Positions 6,168 through 14,467 of a stretch of DNA of 60,800 nucleotides are shown in pieces (position 1 is the first letter of the stretch; the number at the start of each line of letters is the position of its first letter). Below the pieces are notes generated by a model that saw only the letters and a program-made list of their open reading frames with translations, ran no database searches and was not told the DNA's origin. Source of the DNA: Lachnospiraceae bacterium (GTDB lineage Bacteria > Bacillota > Clostridia > Lachnospirales > Lachnospiraceae); the NCBI GenBank assembly GCA_018056425.1, contig JAGPFR010000013.1:1-60800 (forward strand). The letters are read 5' to 3'. The position numbers and the translations under genes are program-made.

Positions 6168-7253
6168 TTACTTTGAAAGCTTCATATCTCCTTCTTTTAC
6201 CCATCCGAGTTTTACCACTACCATGTGGATCAGTGGTGTGATCACTGCGGGTAAAACAAAACAGATGAGAATAAGTCCGATCCAGTCTTTGGCAGTGATA
6301 GCTGCCTTGGTTCCCGCTGCAATGTCATTGACCCATCCGGTGTAAACTCCGAGAGGGCCTACAAATCCGCAGGTTCCCATTCCGGATGATACGGGCGCTC
6401 CGTTCATGTTCATCTGAAAAACGCATGTAGCAATGGGGCCGGTGATAGCGGATGCGACAATGGGTGCGATCCAGATCCTGGGGTTCTTTACGATGTTGCC
6501 CATCTGAAGCATGGAGGTTCCGATGCCCTGAGAGACCAGGCCTCCCATTTTATTTTCCTTATAAGATATAACCGCAAATCCGACCATCTGTGCGCAGCAT
6601 CCCGCAACAGCAGCACCGCCTGCAAGTCCGGTAAGTGAAAGTGCGGCGCAGATCGCAGCGGATGAAATTGGAAGAGTAAGTGCGATTCCTACGATAACGG
6701 ATACAAGAATTCCCATGAGGAAGGGCTGAAGATCCGTTGCCCACATGATGAGCTTTCCTACGGATGATGCCGCTTTTCCGATGGGAGGCGCAATAAGCCA
6801 TGACAGCAGCATTCCGATACCGATGGTAACGAGAGGTGTGACGAGAATATCGATCTTGGTTTCTTTGGATACGGCTTTACCGAATTCAGCCGAAATGATC
6901 GCCACGAACAGAACTGCCAAAGGACCTCCCGCTCCGCCCAGAGCATTGGATGCGAATCCTACGGTTATCATAGAGAAAAGAACAAGAGGCGGGCATTTCA
7001 GTGCATAACCGATGGCCACAGCCATTGCAGGACCGCTCATGGCAGATGCCATTCCGCCGACGGTGTATTCAACTCCGCCGATTGTTGCAACGGTTGCAGT
7101 CAGGAACGGAATGTTAAACTGTGTTCCGAAGGTGTTGATGATCGTTCCGATGAGCAGCGAGCAGAAAAGACCCTGCGCCATCGCACCGAGTGCATCGATA
7201 CCGTATCTCTTAAGTGAGATCTCAATGTTTTTTCTCTTTAAAAATTCCTTCAT
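6168..7253 (-). CDS. PTS EIIC-type membrane protein (PTS_EIIC_2 family)
   Basis: 361 residues and about ten glycine/alanine-rich membrane helices. Landmarks include SLKRYGIDALGAMAQGLFCS, GGMASAMSGPAMAVAIGYAL, GFASNALGGAGGPLAVLF, MNGAPVSSGMGTCGFVGPLG and TPLIHMVVVKLGWV. This is the EIIC-like PTS_EIIC_2 family, in which the permease occurs alone without EIIA/EIIB genes, as here; substrate and even sugar transport are unproven. ATG 7253 is used because TTGGAGGT precedes it. Only 14 bases separate the start from a 97-bp inverted repeat, so its promoter must lie in or beyond that repeat. Confidence 0.82.
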   Translation of the reverse strand: MKEFLKRKNIEISLKRYGIDALGAMAQGLFCSLLIGTIINTFGTQFNIPFLTATVATIGGVEYTVGGMASAMSGPAMAVAIGYALKCPPLVLFSMITVGFASNALGGAGGPLAVLFVAIISAEFGKAVSKETKIDILVTPLVTIGIGMLLSWLIAPPIGKAASSVGKLIMWATDLQPFLMGILVSVIVGIALTLPISSAAICAALSLTGLAGGAAVAGCCAQMVGFAVISYKENKMGGLVSQGIGTSMLQMGNIVKNPRIWIAPIVASAITGPIATCVFQMNMNGAPVSSGMGTCGFVGPLGVYTGWVNDIAAGTKAAITAKDWIGLILICFVLPAVITPLIHMVVVKLGWVKEGDMKLSK

Positions 7254-7266
7254 TTCATACCTCCAA

Positions 7267-7363
7267 GGTGACACGGGGACGTTTCTCTTGTCATCTTTTA
7301 AACCGCAAGACTTATTATCTTAGATTTTATAAAAGATGACAAGAGAAACGTCCCCGTGTCACC
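7267..7363. repeat. Long inverted repeat, GTGACA...TGTCAC family (copy 1)
   Basis: Two perfect 34-bp arms (starting GGTGACACGGGGACGTTTC and ending in its reverse complement) enclose a 29-base AT-rich centre. The same outer arm sequence recurs at 35694-35788, and shortened relatives occur elsewhere in the window. On the minus strand the arm/centre also contains TTGTCA, 17 bases, GATAAT, a promoter-like pair pointing to the EIIC gene. Confidence 0.9.
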
Positions 7364-7370
7364 ACAAAAA

Positions 7371-7394
7371 AGACAGGGGTGAAATCCCCTGTCT
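7371..7394 (-). terminator. Terminator of the EAL gene
   Basis: AGACAGGGG and CCCCTGTCT form a stem with a short loop followed on the minus strand by TTTTTTG, 20 bases after the EAL stop codon. Confidence 0.85.
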
Positions 7395-7414
7395 TAATAC
7401 ATATTATCTTAGAT

Positions 7415-8119
7415 TTATTCGGGCATTGCGAGGTAGTAACCCTGGAAGAGATCTACGCCCATATCCACGAGCATTTCGAATTCTTCTTTTCTCTCTATGC
7501 CCTCAGCAACTACCATGATGTTTCTTGCATGGAATGTCTTTACAAGACCTGATACATTCTCCTGCTTTTCGGAATCTGTATCAATGTCGCTTATGAGTGT
7601 TCTGTCCAACTTAACGATCTGCGGCGAATACATGTCCACCAGATCCATGTTGCTGAGTCCGTTTCCGAAATCATCGATTGCTATCATGAGATTCTGTCTC
7701 TCACATGCAATCTTTTTGTATTTACATGCGTTCTCGGATATAAAAGGATACTCAAGAATCTCTACGATACCTACTCCCGAGAGATCTCCGAAATAACTGT
7801 TGAATGCCGTTGCCTCCGACATGGTAAAGAACTCGGAAGGGAAGGAATTCAGACATACGTGCTCCGTATATCCGCGGGCCTGATACTCCTGCATTGCGCC
7901 GAAGAAAGTAGCTACTTCCAGGACATGGAGCTTATCTTCCTTATCATATTTATCGATAAGATCGAGTACCGTCATCTCGGTAGGGCGCATGAGTGCCTCG
8001 CGGGCAAAAATCGTCTTTCCGTCCGGCTTAAAGATCGGCTGAAATACGTAATTTATTGACAATTCCCCAAGCGCTTTCAGTATGTCGCTGTCTAACGGTA
8101 GATCGTTAAAATAAATCAT
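7415..8119 (-). CDS. EAL-domain cyclic-di-GMP phosphodiesterase
   Basis: 234 residues consisting of one EAL domain: NYVFQPIF, REALMRP (the EAL signature), CLNSFPSEF, VEILEYPF, IDDFGNGLSNMDLV (DDFGxG metal/loop 6 motif), VKLDR, VVAEGIE and LFQGYYLAMPE. The metal-binding and catalytic positions expected for an active PDE appear to be present. No sensory domain or membrane helix is attached, so it is cytoplasmic. An ATG at 8119 with AGGTGGG upstream is preferred over the in-frame GTG four codons earlier. It is monocistronic with its own terminator. Confidence 0.92.
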   Translation of the reverse strand: MIYFNDLPLDSDILKALGELSINYVFQPIFKPDGKTIFAREALMRPTEMTVLDLIDKYDKEDKLHVLEVATFFGAMQEYQARGYTEHVCLNSFPSEFFTMSEATAFNSYFGDLSGVGIVEILEYPFISENACKYKKIACERQNLMIAIDDFGNGLSNMDLVDMYSPQIVKLDRTLISDIDTDSEKQENVSGLVKTFHARNIMVVAEGIERKEEFEMLVDMGVDLFQGYYLAMPE

Positions 8120-8180
8120 TATTTTACCCACCTATAACTGTCGTTACCTAATTCTATCATAGTGGGTAAGTAAGTCAATA

Positions 8181-8573
8181 TCAGAACTTCTCTACTTCAG
8201 GAGCTCCCGTGAAGGAACTGAATGTTGCGGTTGCATTCTGCAGGTAGAAAACCTCGGTATTGTCATCGTCTGCCGAATACATGCCCTGAAGATTGGGATA
8301 TGCATCAAGCATGGATACCTTGGGCTCTCTTCTGTCATCTGCGATAAGCTCGCATGCAACTCTGATCCATTCGCCGTTTAAGAACGCACAGATCTCAGCC
8401 TTGGGATTTGCGTGAAGCTGCTTGCTGACATCTTTCTTTTTACCTGTCTGAATGTAGAGCTTGCCCTCGAACTCGTTGATGGTTCCGAAAGGTCTTACTC
8501 TGGGCTGGTCGCCGTCTACGGTTGCAAGATAATAGGTTCCTGCATCTTTGAGAAATTTAAGTGTTCTTTCCAT
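8181..8573 (-). CDS. Pyridoxamine 5'-phosphate oxidase-like FMN-binding protein
   Basis: 130 residues with the split-barrel flavin-binding pattern: FLKDAGTYYLATVDGDQPRV, RPFGTINEFEGKLYIQTGKKKDVSKQL, NPKAEICAF and EWIRVACEL. The family includes small FMN/F420-binding reductases and stress proteins; the substrate is unknown. It lies 21 bases downstream of a histidine phosphatase gene on the same strand and may share its transcript. Confidence 0.85.
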   Translation of the reverse strand: MERTLKFLKDAGTYYLATVDGDQPRVRPFGTINEFEGKLYIQTGKKKDVSKQLHANPKAEICAFLNGEWIRVACELIADDRREPKVSMLDAYPNLQGMYSADDDNTEVFYLQNATATFSSFTGAPEVEKF

Positions 8574-8594
8574 TTTTATTACCTCCGAACAAAA

Positions 8595-9287
8595 TTATTT
8601 ATTTTCCATTCTGTGATATTTGCCTTCGTGAATATGTCTTCCGTCATTACCAAGTTCGAGACAGGGCAGCGTACAGAGGCCTTCGTGCCTGTCGAACCTT
8701 ATCGTCGTGATGCCGGTAAATTCCATATGGAAGAGTGCACACATATAAGGAAAAGGAATATTAAGGATATGTCCCATCGCTGCTGCCGATGATCCTCCAT
8801 GTGAAAAGAGAGCGATCGTGCGATGTTTCTCTTCCTCCTTGGTATGCCTGTAGTAGAATCCGTCCCGTACGTATCCGAATGTGGCAAGCCACTCATCGAT
8901 ACCGGGCTCTATGCGATCAACGCACTCGATCACGCTGTTTGTTTTGAAGTATGGGCTTTCCCTCCAGTCAGGATCGTTGAGATTAATGTTCTGTCTTGCC
9001 ATCTCATCGACGATGTTCCAAGGATGTCCGTCCGAAAAAAGAGGCTTTCCGTCAGTGCTTCCCCAACTGATCTCCTGCATAAAATCAAGTGTCTTAATGG
9101 GAAGACCGAGCACTCTGGATGTTGCTTCTGCGGTCTCCTGCGCTCTTCCGAGAGGTGATGCATAGATTTCTTCAATGCCTTCTTCCATAAGGCGCTGCGC
9201 ACACCTTTCCGCCTGGATCTTTCCTGTCTCCGTGATGCAGTCCAGCTCATAGTTGGGCTCACCGTGTCTGATAAATAATACTCTCAT
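8595..9287 (-). CDS. Histidine phosphatase superfamily (phosphoglycerate mutase-like) protein
   Basis: 230 residues starting MRVLFIRHGEPNY, with the catalytic RHG motif at residues 7-9. It continues with TETGKIQAERCAQRL, IYASPLGRAQETAE (second arginine motif) and IALFSHGGSSAAAMGH (second catalytic histidine). The acid residue region ISWGSTDG is also in place. Substrate is not predictable; such proteins dephosphorylate small phosphometabolites. Divergent from the ABC exporter operon across a 143-base gap. Confidence 0.88.
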   Translation of the reverse strand: MRVLFIRHGEPNYELDCITETGKIQAERCAQRLMEEGIEEIYASPLGRAQETAEATSRVLGLPIKTLDFMQEISWGSTDGKPLFSDGHPWNIVDEMARQNINLNDPDWRESPYFKTNSVIECVDRIEPGIDEWLATFGYVRDGFYYRHTKEEEKHRTIALFSHGGSSAAAMGHILNIPFPYMCALFHMEFTGITTIRFDRHEGLCTLPCLELGNDGRHIHEGKYHRMENK

Positions 9288-9430
9288 AGTTTAAAACCTT
9301 TACTTTCGGTTGAAATACTCAACTATTATAACACTGTCATTCCGATTCAACCACAAATATAGTGCCTTAACCCTCACCCCTATGATAAAATCATACATGT
9401 ATCGTTATGTAAGAACCCCCATATATCACT

Positions 9431-11719
9431 ATGAAAAACGATTTAAAAAACGACAAACTTTTTCTTGAGAAACTATCAACTCTCGGCATCGATTCAGATG
9501 CCATCATTCTCTCAAGTCCCATCGATCTTTCTTTTGACGGAGAGTACATCAGCGGATACATATTCGTAACCGGTGACAGACTTGGTGTGTGCACGGGTAA
9601 GCTTCCCGAAAACTACATCAACTGCTTCAAGGGAATCGACACGAAGGATCTTGAGGTGCTTGACCCCACAGACCTGCAGGCGGTGCTGTACGATAATGCA
9701 AAGCTTGCTCATCTCAGACTTGATACATACATCGGATCGAATGTTCTCTCAGGCGAATACGATGGCGTCCCCGTTCACATCGCGGCATTTTCGAATCACT
9801 ACCAGTCCGAGATGAATGTGCTCGTAAGACAGCTTCGTGCTTTTCTTAAGGACGGAACTCTTCCTCACGAAGAGGAGAAAGATGAGACCGTTGATAACGA
9901 GGAAGAACTCGTTAAGAAAAAAAGCAAGCGCAATATATTCATGCGCACTCTTAAATATTTCCTGAGGTATAAACTGCAGATCGCTGTTCTCTTTTTAACA
10001 TATGCGACATCAGCGGCAGTCAGTATCGCGTGGCCGTATCTGACAGGTACAGTCCTCTTCGACAGGATTCTTGCAAAGGACGATTCGTTCCTTATGCGCT
10101 TCGGCCTTGCAGGAAAATATACCGTTGCACTTCTTGTCGTTGCACTCGTGATGATCGGTGTCAGACTCATTCAGGCTGCATCGAACTTTTTCCAGATATT
10201 TGTAATGGCCAAGGTCGCAAGCTCGACCGTCAAGGATATCAAGACCGATATCTTCGATGCGATGAGCAGGCTTTCGCTGAATTTCTTCATTAATAAACAG
10301 ACCGGCGGACTTATGACAAGAGTTCTCAGTGACTCCGAAAGAGTCAGGGAGTTTTTCATCGACGGTCTTCCGATGATCTTCGTACACGGTGCGACCATTA
10401 TCATCACCTTCACGGTAATGTTCAGACTCAACTGGAAGATGGCGCTTATCGCATGTATCCTTCTTCCGCTTCTCGTCTTCATGACCGTCAAGCTCCGTCC
10501 CGGTCTCTGGACCCTTTCCGGCAAAAGACATCGTGCGGAAAAAGCGGTTACCGGCAAAGCAAACGATAACCTTACCGGCGCGCGTGTTGTTAAGGCTTTC
10601 GGCCAGCAGGATTCCGAAATCTCAAGGTTTGTCCGTCCCAGCAACAATCTCAAAGATGCTGAGATCAATATCGTAAAACTAAGAAACAGATTTGCGATCC
10701 TCTACAACATGGTTCAGGAGGTATCAAGTATCTGGATCTGGATCGTCGGAGTTATCTTCGTACTTAAGACAAGAGAGATCGAACTCGGTGTGCTCATTAC
10801 TTTCGTCGGATATGTAATGCAGCTTAACGGACCGATGAATTTCTTCTCATATGTATTCAGACTATGGGCAGAAAGCATCAACTCGGCGGAAAGGCTTTTC
10901 GAGATCATCGATGCGATCCCCGAGATTCAGGAAATTGACAATCCTGTCAGATTAGATCATCCAAAAGGCGAGATTGAACTCGATAACGTAACATTCGGAT
11001 ACAGAGCGGGCCGCCCGGTTCTCAAGAACATCAACCTCCATGTCAAAGAAGGCGAGATGCTCGGAATAGTCGGAAGGTCCGGCGCAGGTAAGTCCACACT
11101 CGTTAACCTCATCTCAAGACTCTACGATGTAGGCGAAGGCGAGATCAGAATTGACGGAACCCCGGTCAGGAATCTTGCGCTTTCAGATCTTCGAAGAAAT
11201 GTTGCGATGGTATCTCAGGATACATACATCTTCATGGGTTCTGTTGCCAGGAACATCGCATACGGCAATGAGAATGCCACAAAAGCAGATATCATAAAAG
11301 CTGCAAAGCTTGCATCCGCTCATGAATTCATATCCAAACTTCCGGACGGATACGACACCATCATCGGTGCATCGGGCAAGGATTTATCGGGCGGTGAAAA
11401 ACAGCGTATATCCATTGCGCGTGCGATACTTGCAGATCCCAAGATCCTCATCCTGGATGAAGCAACCGCAAGTGTCGATACCGAGACCGAAAAAGCGATC
11501 CAGCATTCGCTCAAGTTCCTCGTTCAGGGCAGGACAACGCTTTCCATCGCACACAGACTCTCCACCTTACGTGACGCCGACAGGCTTATCGTCATAGACG
11601 GCGGAAGGATTGTCGAAGAAGGAACATGGGATTCCCTTCAGGATAAAGAAGACGGCATCTTCAAAAACCTCCTGGATCTCCAGAACAAATCCCTCGAACA
11701 AACCGCAGAATTTTTGTGA
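9431..11719 (+). CDS. ABC exporter half-transporter with N-terminal PH-like extension (first of pair)
   Basis: 762 residues. Residues 1 to about 150 form a beta-rich extension (SSPIDLSFDGEYISGYIFVT, GDRLGVCTG) followed by an acidic linker. A six-helix type I exporter domain (about 180-470) and an NBD (about 515-755) follow: Walker A GRSGAGKST, signature LSGGEKQR, Walker B ILILDEATAS and H-loop IAHRLST. Both catalytic motifs are intact. The start has no clear Shine-Dalgarno. A DUF1854 gene follows, then a second exporter; together they probably form a heterodimeric exporter with an accessory subunit. The cargo is unknown. Confidence 0.9.
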   Translation: MKNDLKNDKLFLEKLSTLGIDSDAIILSSPIDLSFDGEYISGYIFVTGDRLGVCTGKLPENYINCFKGIDTKDLEVLDPTDLQAVLYDNAKLAHLRLDTYIGSNVLSGEYDGVPVHIAAFSNHYQSEMNVLVRQLRAFLKDGTLPHEEEKDETVDNEEELVKKKSKRNIFMRTLKYFLRYKLQIAVLFLTYATSAAVSIAWPYLTGTVLFDRILAKDDSFLMRFGLAGKYTVALLVVALVMIGVRLIQAASNFFQIFVMAKVASSTVKDIKTDIFDAMSRLSLNFFINKQTGGLMTRVLSDSERVREFFIDGLPMIFVHGATIIITFTVMFRLNWKMALIACILLPLLVFMTVKLRPGLWTLSGKRHRAEKAVTGKANDNLTGARVVKAFGQQDSEISRFVRPSNNLKDAEINIVKLRNRFAILYNMVQEVSSIWIWIVGVIFVLKTREIELGVLITFVGYVMQLNGPMNFFSYVFRLWAESINSAERLFEIIDAIPEIQEIDNPVRLDHPKGEIELDNVTFGYRAGRPVLKNINLHVKEGEMLGIVGRSGAGKSTLVNLISRLYDVGEGEIRIDGTPVRNLALSDLRRNVAMVSQDTYIFMGSVARNIAYGNENATKADIIKAAKLASAHEFISKLPDGYDTIIGASGKDLSGGEKQRISIARAILADPKILILDEATASVDTETEKAIQHSLKFLVQGRTTLSIAHRLSTLRDADRLIVIDGGRIVEEGTWDSLQDKEDGIFKNLLDLQNKSLEQTAEFL

Positions 11720-11743
11720 CAAGGAGTCCGACCCCCTTTCACA
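11715..11743. repeat. Short degenerate GTGACA-type inverted repeat
   Basis: TGTGACAAGGAGTC pairs imperfectly with GACCCCCTTTCACA. The ABC stop codon (TGA, 11717-11719) is inside the left arm. It belongs by sequence to the repeat family described elsewhere and is immediately followed by the RBS of the DUF1854 gene. Confidence 0.55.
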
Positions 11744-11757
11744 TAGAGGAGTTACAA

Positions 11758-12294
11758 ATGGAAGACAATACTTTAAACATATATGAGAAAAAAGCCGAGG
11801 AGATGACAGCAACTCACATCATCTCTCCGGGTGAGAAATTCACTCAGACAGAAGGCGGATTCATAAGTCTCGATTACGATGGCAAGCATTACAACAGAGT
11901 CAAGGTGGTAAGGCTCTTTCCTTTTTCGGATGCGAATAAATATCTTTCCATCAGAGAGTACGGCGGATCCGGCAAGGAGATAGGCATCATTGAAGACCTC
12001 GATGCAATGCCCGCAGAGACAAAGGCAGTTATAGAGCATCAGCTGACCCTCAGTTATTTTACTCCCGTGATCAGTAAGATCTACAGCATCAAGGATGAGT
12101 ACGGATATGCATACTTCCACGTTCTTACCGATAAGGGCGAGTGTAAGTTTGCCATAAACATGGGATCCAATGCGGTAAGCAAACTCTCCGATACAAGACT
12201 CATAATCCAGGATGTCGATGAAAACCGTTTTGAGATCGGAGACACCGATGCCCTGACCCAGAAGGAAAAGAGAATGCTCGACCTGTTCATGTAA
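11758..12294 (+). CDS. DUF1854 family protein between two ABC exporters
   Basis: 178 residues, soluble. The pattern VKVVRLFPFSDANKYLSIRE, GKEIGIIEDLDAMPAETKAV, TLSYFTPVISKIYSIKDEYG, GECKFAIN and RLIIQDVDENRFEIGD matches DUF1854 (charged RxFPLSxxxxYISLRD then KEIGxIEDL). In several bacteria this domain accompanies ABC exporters and has been named after cyanophycin gene clusters, but no cyanophycin synthetase or cyanophycinase is in this window. The start at 11758 follows GAGGAG. It lies 13 bases before the second exporter gene, so the three genes are one operon. I infer a regulatory or cargo-handling subunit. Confidence 0.82.
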   Translation: MEDNTLNIYEKKAEEMTATHIISPGEKFTQTEGGFISLDYDGKHYNRVKVVRLFPFSDANKYLSIREYGGSGKEIGIIEDLDAMPAETKAVIEHQLTLSYFTPVISKIYSIKDEYGYAYFHVLTDKGECKFAINMGSNAVSKLSDTRLIIQDVDENRFEIGDTDALTQKEKRMLDLFM

Positions 12295-12307
12295 TTGAGG
12301 ATTGATA

Positions 12308-14467
12308 ATGATCTTAAAATATGACCTTCCGAAAAATGCAGAAAGCATGGTTACGCTCACCAGTGATGAGCGAATTTACTATGCCGTTCCGATAGATATT
12401 GATGAAGCCGGAAACTTTACAACCGATTCCTTCTTCGTCGTAACCACAAAGAAGCTCTGCATCATTCGCGGAAAAGATTATAAAGAATACGATATCAAAG
12501 ATTTCGATAAAGCATCTGCCGAGCCCGGAATAGGCGGTGGTATCCTTACCGTACGTAAAGGCGATACCCACACCGTACTTGCCCACTACTCTTCCAAGCA
12601 TCTTAGCAGATATGCATATATCGCCCGTGGGATCAACATCCTCATCTCCGGCAGATTTGAAGAAGTAATCAGCCCCGAGTATGAGAAGATCTGTCCAATA
12701 TGCGGACGTGCGATCCCAGGAACCAAGACCTGCCCCAAGTGTTCAGGCAAAGGCGGTTTCTTAAGCGTGTTTACCAGGATGGCTGCTCCTTATAAGAAGG
12801 ACTTCCTCGGAATCTTCCTTGTCATGGTATTTGTTGCGGTCACAACGCTCCTTAATCCCGAAGTGCAGAAGCACCTGATAAATGATGTACTGAGTAAGGA
12901 CGGAAAACTCAGCACGGCGCTTATCTACCTGACCCTGATGTTCACATTCAGCGCCTCGATAGTAATCTTAAACATTATAAAGAGTAATGCCTCCGCAAGG
13001 CTCGGCTCCAAGATTGCGGCCGATTTAAGAAAACAACTATTTGAGAAATACCAGAAGCTCCCCTTAAGCTTTATCAATGACAGAAGACCCGGCGAGCTTT
13101 TAAACAGGATCACTCAGGATACAAGATACATCAGCGATTTCATGGCCGATGTCTTTTGTAACCTCTTTGCGATACTCTTTATTTTCATCTGGGATGTCAT
13201 CTTCATGATGGTCCTCAACATTAAGCTTGCGCTCCTCACATTCATCCTCGTTCCGTTCGTATCGCTCCTTGTTATCACATTCAGGAAAACAATGAGCCGT
13301 ATCTTCGGACTCCAGTACAGGAAGAATGATGACGTTGCAAGTAACCTTCAGGATGTCATCTCCGGAATGCGAGTAGTTAAGACCTACGGCAAGGAAAAAG
13401 ATGAATCCGAAAGATTCAAAGCGGTTTCGGAAACATTCGCTGTCATCCAGAAAAAGAATGAAAGATTCTGGGGAATGTTTGACTTCCTTGTATCCGTTCT
13501 TATGGGAATGGGACTTGTCATCGTAGTTTACTTCGGAGGCATGGATGTTCTCGGAGATAAGATGTCACCCGGCGAGCTCTATCAGTTCATCGCATATACT
13601 CTTCTTCTCTTCCAGTACATCGGATGGCTCGGCAGACTTCCCAGGGAATTGTCGAGACTTACAAGCAGCCTTGAAAGAATCTACGATGTACTGGCGCAGG
13701 ATGTTCACGAAGAGCCGGAGACCGTTAAGGATATCGATATCAAAGGTGAGATCACATTCGATCACGCAACATTCGGATACAAGTCCTACCAGCCCGTTCT
13801 CGAGAATATCAATGCGGTTGTAAAACCCGGTGAGATGATCGGTATCGTCGGCGCATCCGGTGCAGGTAAATCAACTCTCATCAATCTCATGATGAGACTT
13901 TACGAAACCGATGACGGACGCATCCTTGTTGACGGTGTCGATATTAAGGATATAAGCCGTAAGTCATATCACTCACAGCTCGGAGTTGTTCTCCAGGAAA
14001 CATTCCTCTTCTCGGGAACAATCCTTGATAACATCAAATTCTCCAAGCCGGATGCCACTGTCGAGGAGATCATAAGGGCTGCAAAACTTGCAAATGCTCA
14101 CGACTTTATCTGCGCACTTCCCGACGGATACAATACCTATGTCGGCGAAAAGGGATACACTCTCTCGGGCGGCGAGCGTCAGAGAATCGCAATTGCAAGA
14201 GCAATCCTTCCCGATCCCCGCATCCTTATCCTTGATGAAGCAACCGCAAGCCTTGATACCGAGAGCGAATTCATGATTCAGAAAGCACTCGAAAGACTTA
14301 CAAGCGGCAAGACCACCTTTGCAATCGCGCACAGATTATCAACCCTTAAGAATGCCGACCGGATCATGGTTATAGACGATCACCACATAGCAGAGTTCGG
14401 AACTCACAAAGAACTCCTTGATAATAAAGGCATTTACTATAACCTGTTTACAGCTCAGACGTCATAG
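12308..14467 (+). CDS. ABC exporter half-transporter with PH-like domain and zinc ribbon (second of pair)
   Basis: 719 residues. Residues 1-125 are a PH-like beta domain (ERIYYAVPIDID, DSFFVVTTKKLCIIRG, YKEYDIKDFD). It is followed by a four-cysteine zinc ribbon (CPICGRAIPGTKTCPKC, cysteines about 129, 132, 142 and 145), a six-helix exporter domain (about 160-450) and an NBD with GASGAGKST, LSGGERQR, LILDEATASLD and IAHRLST. The ATG at 12308 is preferred over a TTG two codons upstream. A ribbon fused in front of the membrane domain is unusual for an exporter and suggests a cytoplasmic sensing or docking function. It shares an operon with DUF1854 and the first exporter. Confidence 0.9.
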   Translation: MILKYDLPKNAESMVTLTSDERIYYAVPIDIDEAGNFTTDSFFVVTTKKLCIIRGKDYKEYDIKDFDKASAEPGIGGGILTVRKGDTHTVLAHYSSKHLSRYAYIARGINILISGRFEEVISPEYEKICPICGRAIPGTKTCPKCSGKGGFLSVFTRMAAPYKKDFLGIFLVMVFVAVTTLLNPEVQKHLINDVLSKDGKLSTALIYLTLMFTFSASIVILNIIKSNASARLGSKIAADLRKQLFEKYQKLPLSFINDRRPGELLNRITQDTRYISDFMADVFCNLFAILFIFIWDVIFMMVLNIKLALLTFILVPFVSLLVITFRKTMSRIFGLQYRKNDDVASNLQDVISGMRVVKTYGKEKDESERFKAVSETFAVIQKKNERFWGMFDFLVSVLMGMGLVIVVYFGGMDVLGDKMSPGELYQFIAYTLLLFQYIGWLGRLPRELSRLTSSLERIYDVLAQDVHEEPETVKDIDIKGEITFDHATFGYKSYQPVLENINAVVKPGEMIGIVGASGAGKSTLINLMMRLYETDDGRILVDGVDIKDISRKSYHSQLGVVLQETFLFSGTILDNIKFSKPDATVEEIIRAAKLANAHDFICALPDGYNTYVGEKGYTLSGGERQRIAIARAILPDPRILILDEATASLDTESEFMIQKALERLTSGKTTFAIAHRLSTLKNADRIMVIDDHHIAEFGTHKELLDNKGIYYNLFTAQTS

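Follow-up and report, generated by a model that had tools for sequence, protein, structure and literature searches.

A cassette of three genes, in which two ABC half-exporters flank a DUF1854 protein, was identified in the window, by which is meant the whole 60,800-nucleotide stretch of Lachnospiraceae DNA that was analysed. On balance, and with modest confidence, the cassette is read as a heterodimeric type IV exporter in which cytosolic front ends, made of PH-like domains and a four-cysteine ribbon, form one built-in soluble assembly with the DUF1854 protein, and this assembly is most likely regulatory. Comparison with relatives supports a lasting functional partnership between DUF1854 and the exporters, with DUF1854 as a constant module and not a stray neighbour.

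The genes are closely packed on the forward strand at 9431–14467 in the order ABC1, DUF1854, ABC2. ABC1 (9431–11719, +) is an ORF of 762 aa with an N-terminal PH-like domain that carries no ribbon, followed by a transmembrane domain (TMD) and a nucleotide-binding domain (NBD). The mechanical ORF of the DUF1854 gene begins at GTG 11716 and was trimmed to ATG 11758, which is preceded by an SD-like GAGGAG and is probably the true start (11758–12294, +; 178 aa; PF08909, 1.3e-36). The mechanical ORF of ABC2 (TTG 12302, 721 aa) was likewise trimmed to ATG 12308, which follows GAGGA and probably opens a protein of 719 aa (12308–14467, +). The trimmed starts agree with those of L037, a near relative, and with the consensus of ABC2. 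The resulting gaps are 38 bases between ABC1 and DUF1854 and 13 bases between DUF1854 and ABC2, and because they are short the three genes are presumed to form one operon. Scans found 7 promoter and 7 terminator sites, compared with averages of 9.3 and 5.2 for shuffled sequence, which is about chance level. The arrangement of two half-exporters around a DUF1854 protein, proposed in an earlier note made from the sequence, was borne out by the ORFs and by Pfam matches over cut-off to TMD, NBD and PF08909. The source genome (2.56 Mb, 90.76 % complete) holds no second DUF1854 match by profile search, and the nearest named loci are mostly from Lachnospiraceae and other Clostridia (taxon according to the database record).

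Both ABC proteins have the arrangement of type IV (exporter-fold) half-transporters, TMD and then NBD in one chain. In ABC1 the TMD (PF00664, 132.3 bits) spans 9986–10837 and the NBD (PF00005, 122.6 bits) 11021–11470; in ABC2 the TMD (140.6 bits) spans 12812–13615 and the NBD (118 bits) 13799–14248, all on the + strand and all far over the Pfam cut-offs. Walker A, signature (LSGGEKQR in ABC1, LSGGERQR in ABC2), catalytic Glu and H-loop (AHRL) are canonical in both window subunits and intact in nearly all relatives, and both ATP sites look catalytic. Assignment to the heterodimeric exporters with a degenerate site was ruled out by the Glu and the canonical signature in both proteins. The class of peptide exporters that contain a C39 peptidase was also set aside: no C39 domain was among the Pfam families listed (all 18 for ABC1, the best 25 of 29 for ABC2), and ABC2 has a front end predicted to be PH-like instead.

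In a tree of 94 rows, built by a quick method and with no outside root, ABC1 proteins were separate from ABC2 proteins and single-ABC forms, and ABC2 made up one starred group. The pattern is compatible with an ancient duplication, after which both copies were inherited together. By eye, the ABC1 and ABC2 sides of the tree have similar species content, and this likeness, together with the constant pairing of ABC1 with ABC2, suggests that the two assemble as a heterodimer. The top sequence matches among solved structures were two-half exporters that scored with both halves (ABCB4, ABCB1 and the bile salt pump among them), and the best single-half structures include Sav1866, TM288 and MsbA; nothing firm as to cargo is indicated by this likeness.

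The front end of ABC2 (12308–12652, +) was modelled with AlphaFold2 from an 81-row alignment (mean pLDDT 91.2), and a seven-stranded barrel (residues 25–115) closed by a long C-terminal helix was obtained. This domain is confidently predicted to have a PH-like fold. The PDB matches listed in a fold search were mostly PH, PTB and PH-like domains and were modest in strength (best E 1.1e-3, none below 0.001; query TM-scores of 0.35–0.50 in the listed rows). The Pfam family bPH_3 (PF14470) scored 16 bits against the window domain, under its gathering cut-off of 23, whereas with an E limit of 0.1 it matched 24 of 81 ABC2 relatives, the strongest at 3.6e-5. The corresponding part of ABC1 (9431–9850, +; about residues 1–140, limits approximate) is homologous to the ABC2 domain by hhalign (probability 99.8, E 4.1e-30), a match to which the ribbon columns contribute. 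Because it is tied to the ABC2 domain by this profile comparison, the ABC1 domain would be PH-like by kinship; no bPH match was among the 25 of 33 Pfam families listed for ABC1 front-end domains. Unusual PH-like fronts had been claimed for both exporters: N-terminal domains are present on both, and their PH-like nature was upheld by predicted structure and fold search for ABC2 and by profile comparison only for ABC1, whereas the term unusual did not stand, since the domains are a family-wide trait.

Directly before the membrane domain of ABC2 lies a four-cysteine ribbon of the form CxxC-x9-CxxC (CPIC..CPKC; 12692–12742, +). Its placement ahead of the first membrane helix of the second exporter agrees with the original reading of the DNA, and the ribbon recurs in 100 of 100 ABC2 proteins, the window counted. 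Two CxxC pairs at zinc-ribbon spacing are found in ABC2 and are missing from window ABC1; the ABC2 ribbon is a putative metal-binding site. The Pfam family DZR scored 15 bits against it (gathering cut-off 27.3) and matched 66 of 81 ABC2 relatives at E 0.1. The ribbon is invariant across the 81 rows of the ABC2 alignment, which is not an independent count because the rows had been cut at the ribbon. It is further present in 8 of 8 full-length single-ABC relatives (8 of 9 once a Gemmatirosa relative is added, from whose translation it is absent), in 4 of 6 full-length fused ABC1-DUF1854 proteins and in 55 of 96 ABC1 proteins. Window ABC1 is among the 41 of 96 that lack it and falls in a supported ten-row tree group, all of whose members are without the ribbon. 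Since it is missing from these 41 proteins and from the Gemmatirosa relative, the ribbon cannot be essential in every subunit. Separately, a weak PH-plus-ribbon match (E 8.7e-6) was noted within a 966-aa frame in a genome that has no DUF1854 (G047:C7:22535–22909).

The middle protein matches PF08909 with 125.7 bits (cut-off 26.8). Its structural model has a mean pLDDT of 85.7; Foldseek comparison of this model with the PDB gave nothing under E 0.001 (best E 0.065, TM 0.22), and sequence-profile and single-sequence searches of the PDB returned no match at E 0.001. A weak Pfam match to PRC_RimM was obtained (E 0.23). The C-terminus, LDLF[LMI] (window 12271–12291), is strongly conserved in Lachnospiraceae and less so in distant proteins, and these residues are perhaps a docking tail. 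In one genome (G206) the DUF1854 gene is split over two frames (L173:9719–10184), owing to a frameshift that is either genuine or an assembly error. A DUF1854 gene was also found at 9072–9605 of MT835803.1, an unannotated 'Bacteriophage sp.' record from human faeces, possibly as bacterial DNA within a phage record. Plasmid searches with the window and L032 queries gave no match, and a search with the L169 DUF1854 query gave one Gemmatirosa megaplasmid. A defence-system assignment was rejected: the PADLOC models mad3 and mad8 match the ATPase part of both exporters, and none matches DUF1854 at E 1e-5. In the open-licence PubMed Central papers searched the term DUF1854 is absent, and no study of this transporter was among those listed.

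The partnership was followed through 121 loci: the window, 20 of the 22 further matches in the family, those 80 of the 540 contig-database matches that are most like the window, and 20 of the 26 further matches in the phylum. In all 121 (122 ORFs, one locus being split) DUF1854 adjoins or is fused to such an exporter, a count that is partly conditioned because the loci were found via DUF1854 itself and 80 were picked by their likeness to the window. At the eight left-out family and phylum matches and the Gemmatirosa locus, an ABC gene or fragment lies alongside in 9 of 9. Among the 122 ORFs, 100 stand between two ABC genes, 14 have an upstream ABC gene only, 1 has a downstream ABC gene only and 7 are fused; the 15 one-sided ORFs comprise 9 that read as single-ABC loci and 6 near a contig end. 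The order ABC1-DUF1854-ABC2 is seen in 84 of 101 loci, and the other 17 are accounted for by contig ends close by (8), a fusion (6), a split ABC frame (2) and a single ABC gene (1, L032).

Natural fusions of ABC1 and DUF1854 number seven. Six are from Lachnospiraceae, as assigned in the database records (L092, L095, L097, L099, L101 and L104), and one (L155) is from the distant family f119. The L155 chain has 1024 aa (9744–12818) and the L092 fusion is a single chain at 7670–10552; at L097 the ABC1 part is split and the fused frame has 437 aa. Co-inheritance was followed in 200 genomes of the bacterial family, 22 of which have DUF1854. A profile of the PH-ribbon front end matched 53 of the same genomes at E 0.001. 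Matches of E 2.4e-22 or better fell in 22 genomes, precisely the set that has DUF1854; the limit between strong and weak matches was chosen after the gap had been seen. Matches in the remaining 31 had E 3.3e-6 or worse and were mostly short and in the ribbon part. As the profile had been built partly from the same genomes, the absence of strong matches from the other 178 is the only free test, and in some of these 19 of a larger number of candidates were scored. Natural fusion and co-inheritance point to contact between DUF1854 and the exporter; they would also fit a functional partnership that involves no stable docking.

Neighbouring genes were clustered from the ORFs of 101 loci, up to 10 kb on each side, with many contigs shorter than this. 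Outside the cluster of the cassette itself, no family at all occurs in more than 12 of 101 loci, and no cargo or pathway gene is evident. The cassette cluster holds 363 ORFs in which the cassette and other ABC ATPases are merged, and therefore an ABC neighbour could hide there. In the window, the cassette follows a histidine phosphatase gene on the other strand and precedes a GNAT acetyltransferase gene, with no evident link to either. Also upstream, at 6168–8131 on the − strand, two genes were noted, one for a membrane protein of the PTS_EIIC_2 family and one for a protein with an EAL domain. Neighbours that resemble sialidase, HelD or glycerol-1-phosphate dehydrogenase (all named by eye) are each shared by a small set of loci. 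In four family genomes (L040, L045, L046 and L047) a sialidase-like gene stands immediately before the cassette, with overlapping ends in L040 and L046, and in five genomes of family f65 (L160–L163 and L165) the cassette comes after a gene that looks HelD-like.

In the mechanism favoured here, ABC1 and ABC2 would form a heterodimeric pump. Each half would open with a PH-like domain, to which ABC2, and in many relatives ABC1 too, would add a zinc-ribbon-like clamp before the first membrane helix. The DUF1854 protein would be an ever-present cytosolic subunit and would probably dock close to the C-terminus of the ABC1 NBD, which is its fusion site in some species. It would most likely couple or gate the use of ATP according to the state of the PH-ribbon platform, and would not serve cyanophycin metabolism. 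The cargo would be made outside the locus and would be a small molecule, a lipid or a general metabolite rather than a dedicated peptide; a dedicated peptide is disfavoured because, outside the cassette cluster, 12 of 101 loci is the most in which any neighbour family was seen, and because no C39 domain is listed. Docking, regulatory role and off-locus cargo are all inferred. In proposing gating, appeal is made only to general precedent, as this is the role that soluble domains on ABC pumps most often have. A bolder version is offered tentatively and may well be wrong: that the PH-like fronts, the ribbon and DUF1854 are a single soluble control module exclusive to this exporter class, with DUF1854 as the first example of a new type of ABC exporter subunit, docked on the NBDs and gating the pump.

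The main rival to a gating role is a cargo dock, in which the PH-like domains and DUF1854 would capture a cytosolic peptide or protein and hand it over to the pump. It is considered unlikely. The front-end parts are soluble and N-terminal to the membrane domain, as such a dock could be, and in the available part of a study of the leaderless bacteriocin EntDD14 (PMC8657885) its export, alongside an ABC transporter, depends on two proteins with PH domains, DdE and DdF; these are, however, separate proteins and not ABC domains according to the same text (PMC8657885), and no neighbour family outside the cassette cluster was found in more than 12 of 101 loci.

An exporter of lipid- or glycan-related compounds, with its cargo set by the pathways of the host, is judged just as improbable as a dock. 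The best NCBIfam relatives other than the cyanophycin models are MsbA, MsbA-related, HepA and type I secretion models, and a sialidase-like gene precedes the cassette in the four Lachnospiraceae loci given above, with carbohydrate genes near some others (by eye). Against this, all 25 NCBIfam scores listed per ABC protein are under their cut-offs, and the neighbours differ between loci.

Less probable again is a general multidrug pump in which the role of DUF1854 would be minor or unrelated. Such a pump would agree with cores that match ordinary solved exporters (ABCB1, Sav1866, TM287/288 and MsbA), the top two-half chains scoring with both halves, and would sit badly with DUF1854 and the PH-ribbon front end as constant companions and with the natural fusions of ABC1 and DUF1854.

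A cyanophycin link is suggested by the names of the nearest models. The best NCBIfam model for both ABC proteins is NF052233 (CphA_assoc_ABC), with 524.3 bits for ABC1 and 529.5 bits for ABC2 against a cut-off of 880, and for the DUF1854 protein it is NF052234 (CphA_assoc_prot), with 86.6 bits against a cut-off of 150. NF052233 likewise fell short of its cut-off in each of 19 phylum genomes that have DUF1854, and six further relatives were under the cut-offs of their NCBIfam models. Cyanophycin synthetase (TIGR02068) reached its cut-off in none of the 22 family genomes that have DUF1854 (best 151.3 bits, cut-off 850); in the source genome, at 90.76 % completeness, the best score was 68.8 bits, under cut-off. 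In a survey of 398 phylum genomes, with the 2 best candidates scored in each, TIGR02068 was over cut-off in 118 and DUF1854 was present in 20; four more genomes had sub-cut-off TIGR02068 matches of 583–771 bits, and the positive control, Deinobacterium chartae, was over the cut-off. The synthetase was present in 1 of 20 DUF1854-positive genomes and in 117 of 378 others (Fisher p 0.011, ignoring kinship), so that the two genes are found together, if anything, less often than expected. The only phylum genome with both (G590) has them on different contigs. The earlier note had raised the case of a cyanophycin locus that always co-occurs in relatives, and within the phylum this is contradicted (0 of 22; 1 of 20). 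On the Gemmatirosa megaplasmid, inspection by eye of the listed part of the stretch revealed no cyanophycin gene. Neither 'DUF' nor 'export' was found in the available text of a bioinformatic study of cyanophycin genes, in which amino-acid transporters are mentioned only in scavenging clusters (PMC10206079). A cyanophycin-linked transporter is accordingly regarded as very improbable, as the nearest models, named after cyanophycin metabolism, and the one genome with both genes are outweighed by scores under 880 and 150 and by a synthetase found in none of the 22 family genomes and, in the phylum, in 1 of the 20 genomes with DUF1854 as opposed to 117 of the 378 others, and as a general explanation the link was rejected for this lineage.

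The system behind NF052233 and NF052234 is still the nearest comparison: the window proteins are homologous to it over nearly their whole length, the front-end domain included. The pairing of an ABC protein with a DUF1854 protein among its members is taken from the model names. The window differs from it in scores under both cut-offs, in two different ABC subunits and in a genome with no cyanophycin synthetase over cut-off. TM287/288, TmrAB and BmrCD (YheH), bacterial heterodimeric type IV exporters of solved structure that were listed as sequence matches, resemble the window in that each pairs two unlike half-exporters in which a TMD precedes an NBD. Each of the three is known to have one degenerate ATP site, whereas in the window both look canonical. 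To our knowledge, none of them has both PH-like fronts and a DUF1854 protein as partner.

A PH-like fold is shared by the ABC2 front end with bacterial PH-domain proteins, namely 3dcx, 3hsa, YdbT and the DdE and DdF proteins of EntDD14. In 3dcx, 3hsa and YdbT the PH domain is not known to belong to an ABC chain, unlike in the window exporters. DdE and DdF, like the window PH domains, work beside an ABC transporter, as far as the available part of the text goes; in that text their PH domains are outside the ABC chain, whereas in the window one is built into each ABC half (PMC8657885). The exporter described here is an uncharacterised variant of a known transporter type, and its PH-like fronts, ribbon and DUF1854 are family-wide traits.

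The cyanophycin-based family names are misleading for these genomes and should not be transferred to them. For structural work, the natural ABC1-DUF1854 fusions (L155 and L092) are ready single-chain constructs. ABC exporters are commonly regarded as self-contained. If the proposed reading is true, a widespread exporter lineage in which PH-like and ribbon parts are combined with a constant soluble partner would represent a new mode of export control.
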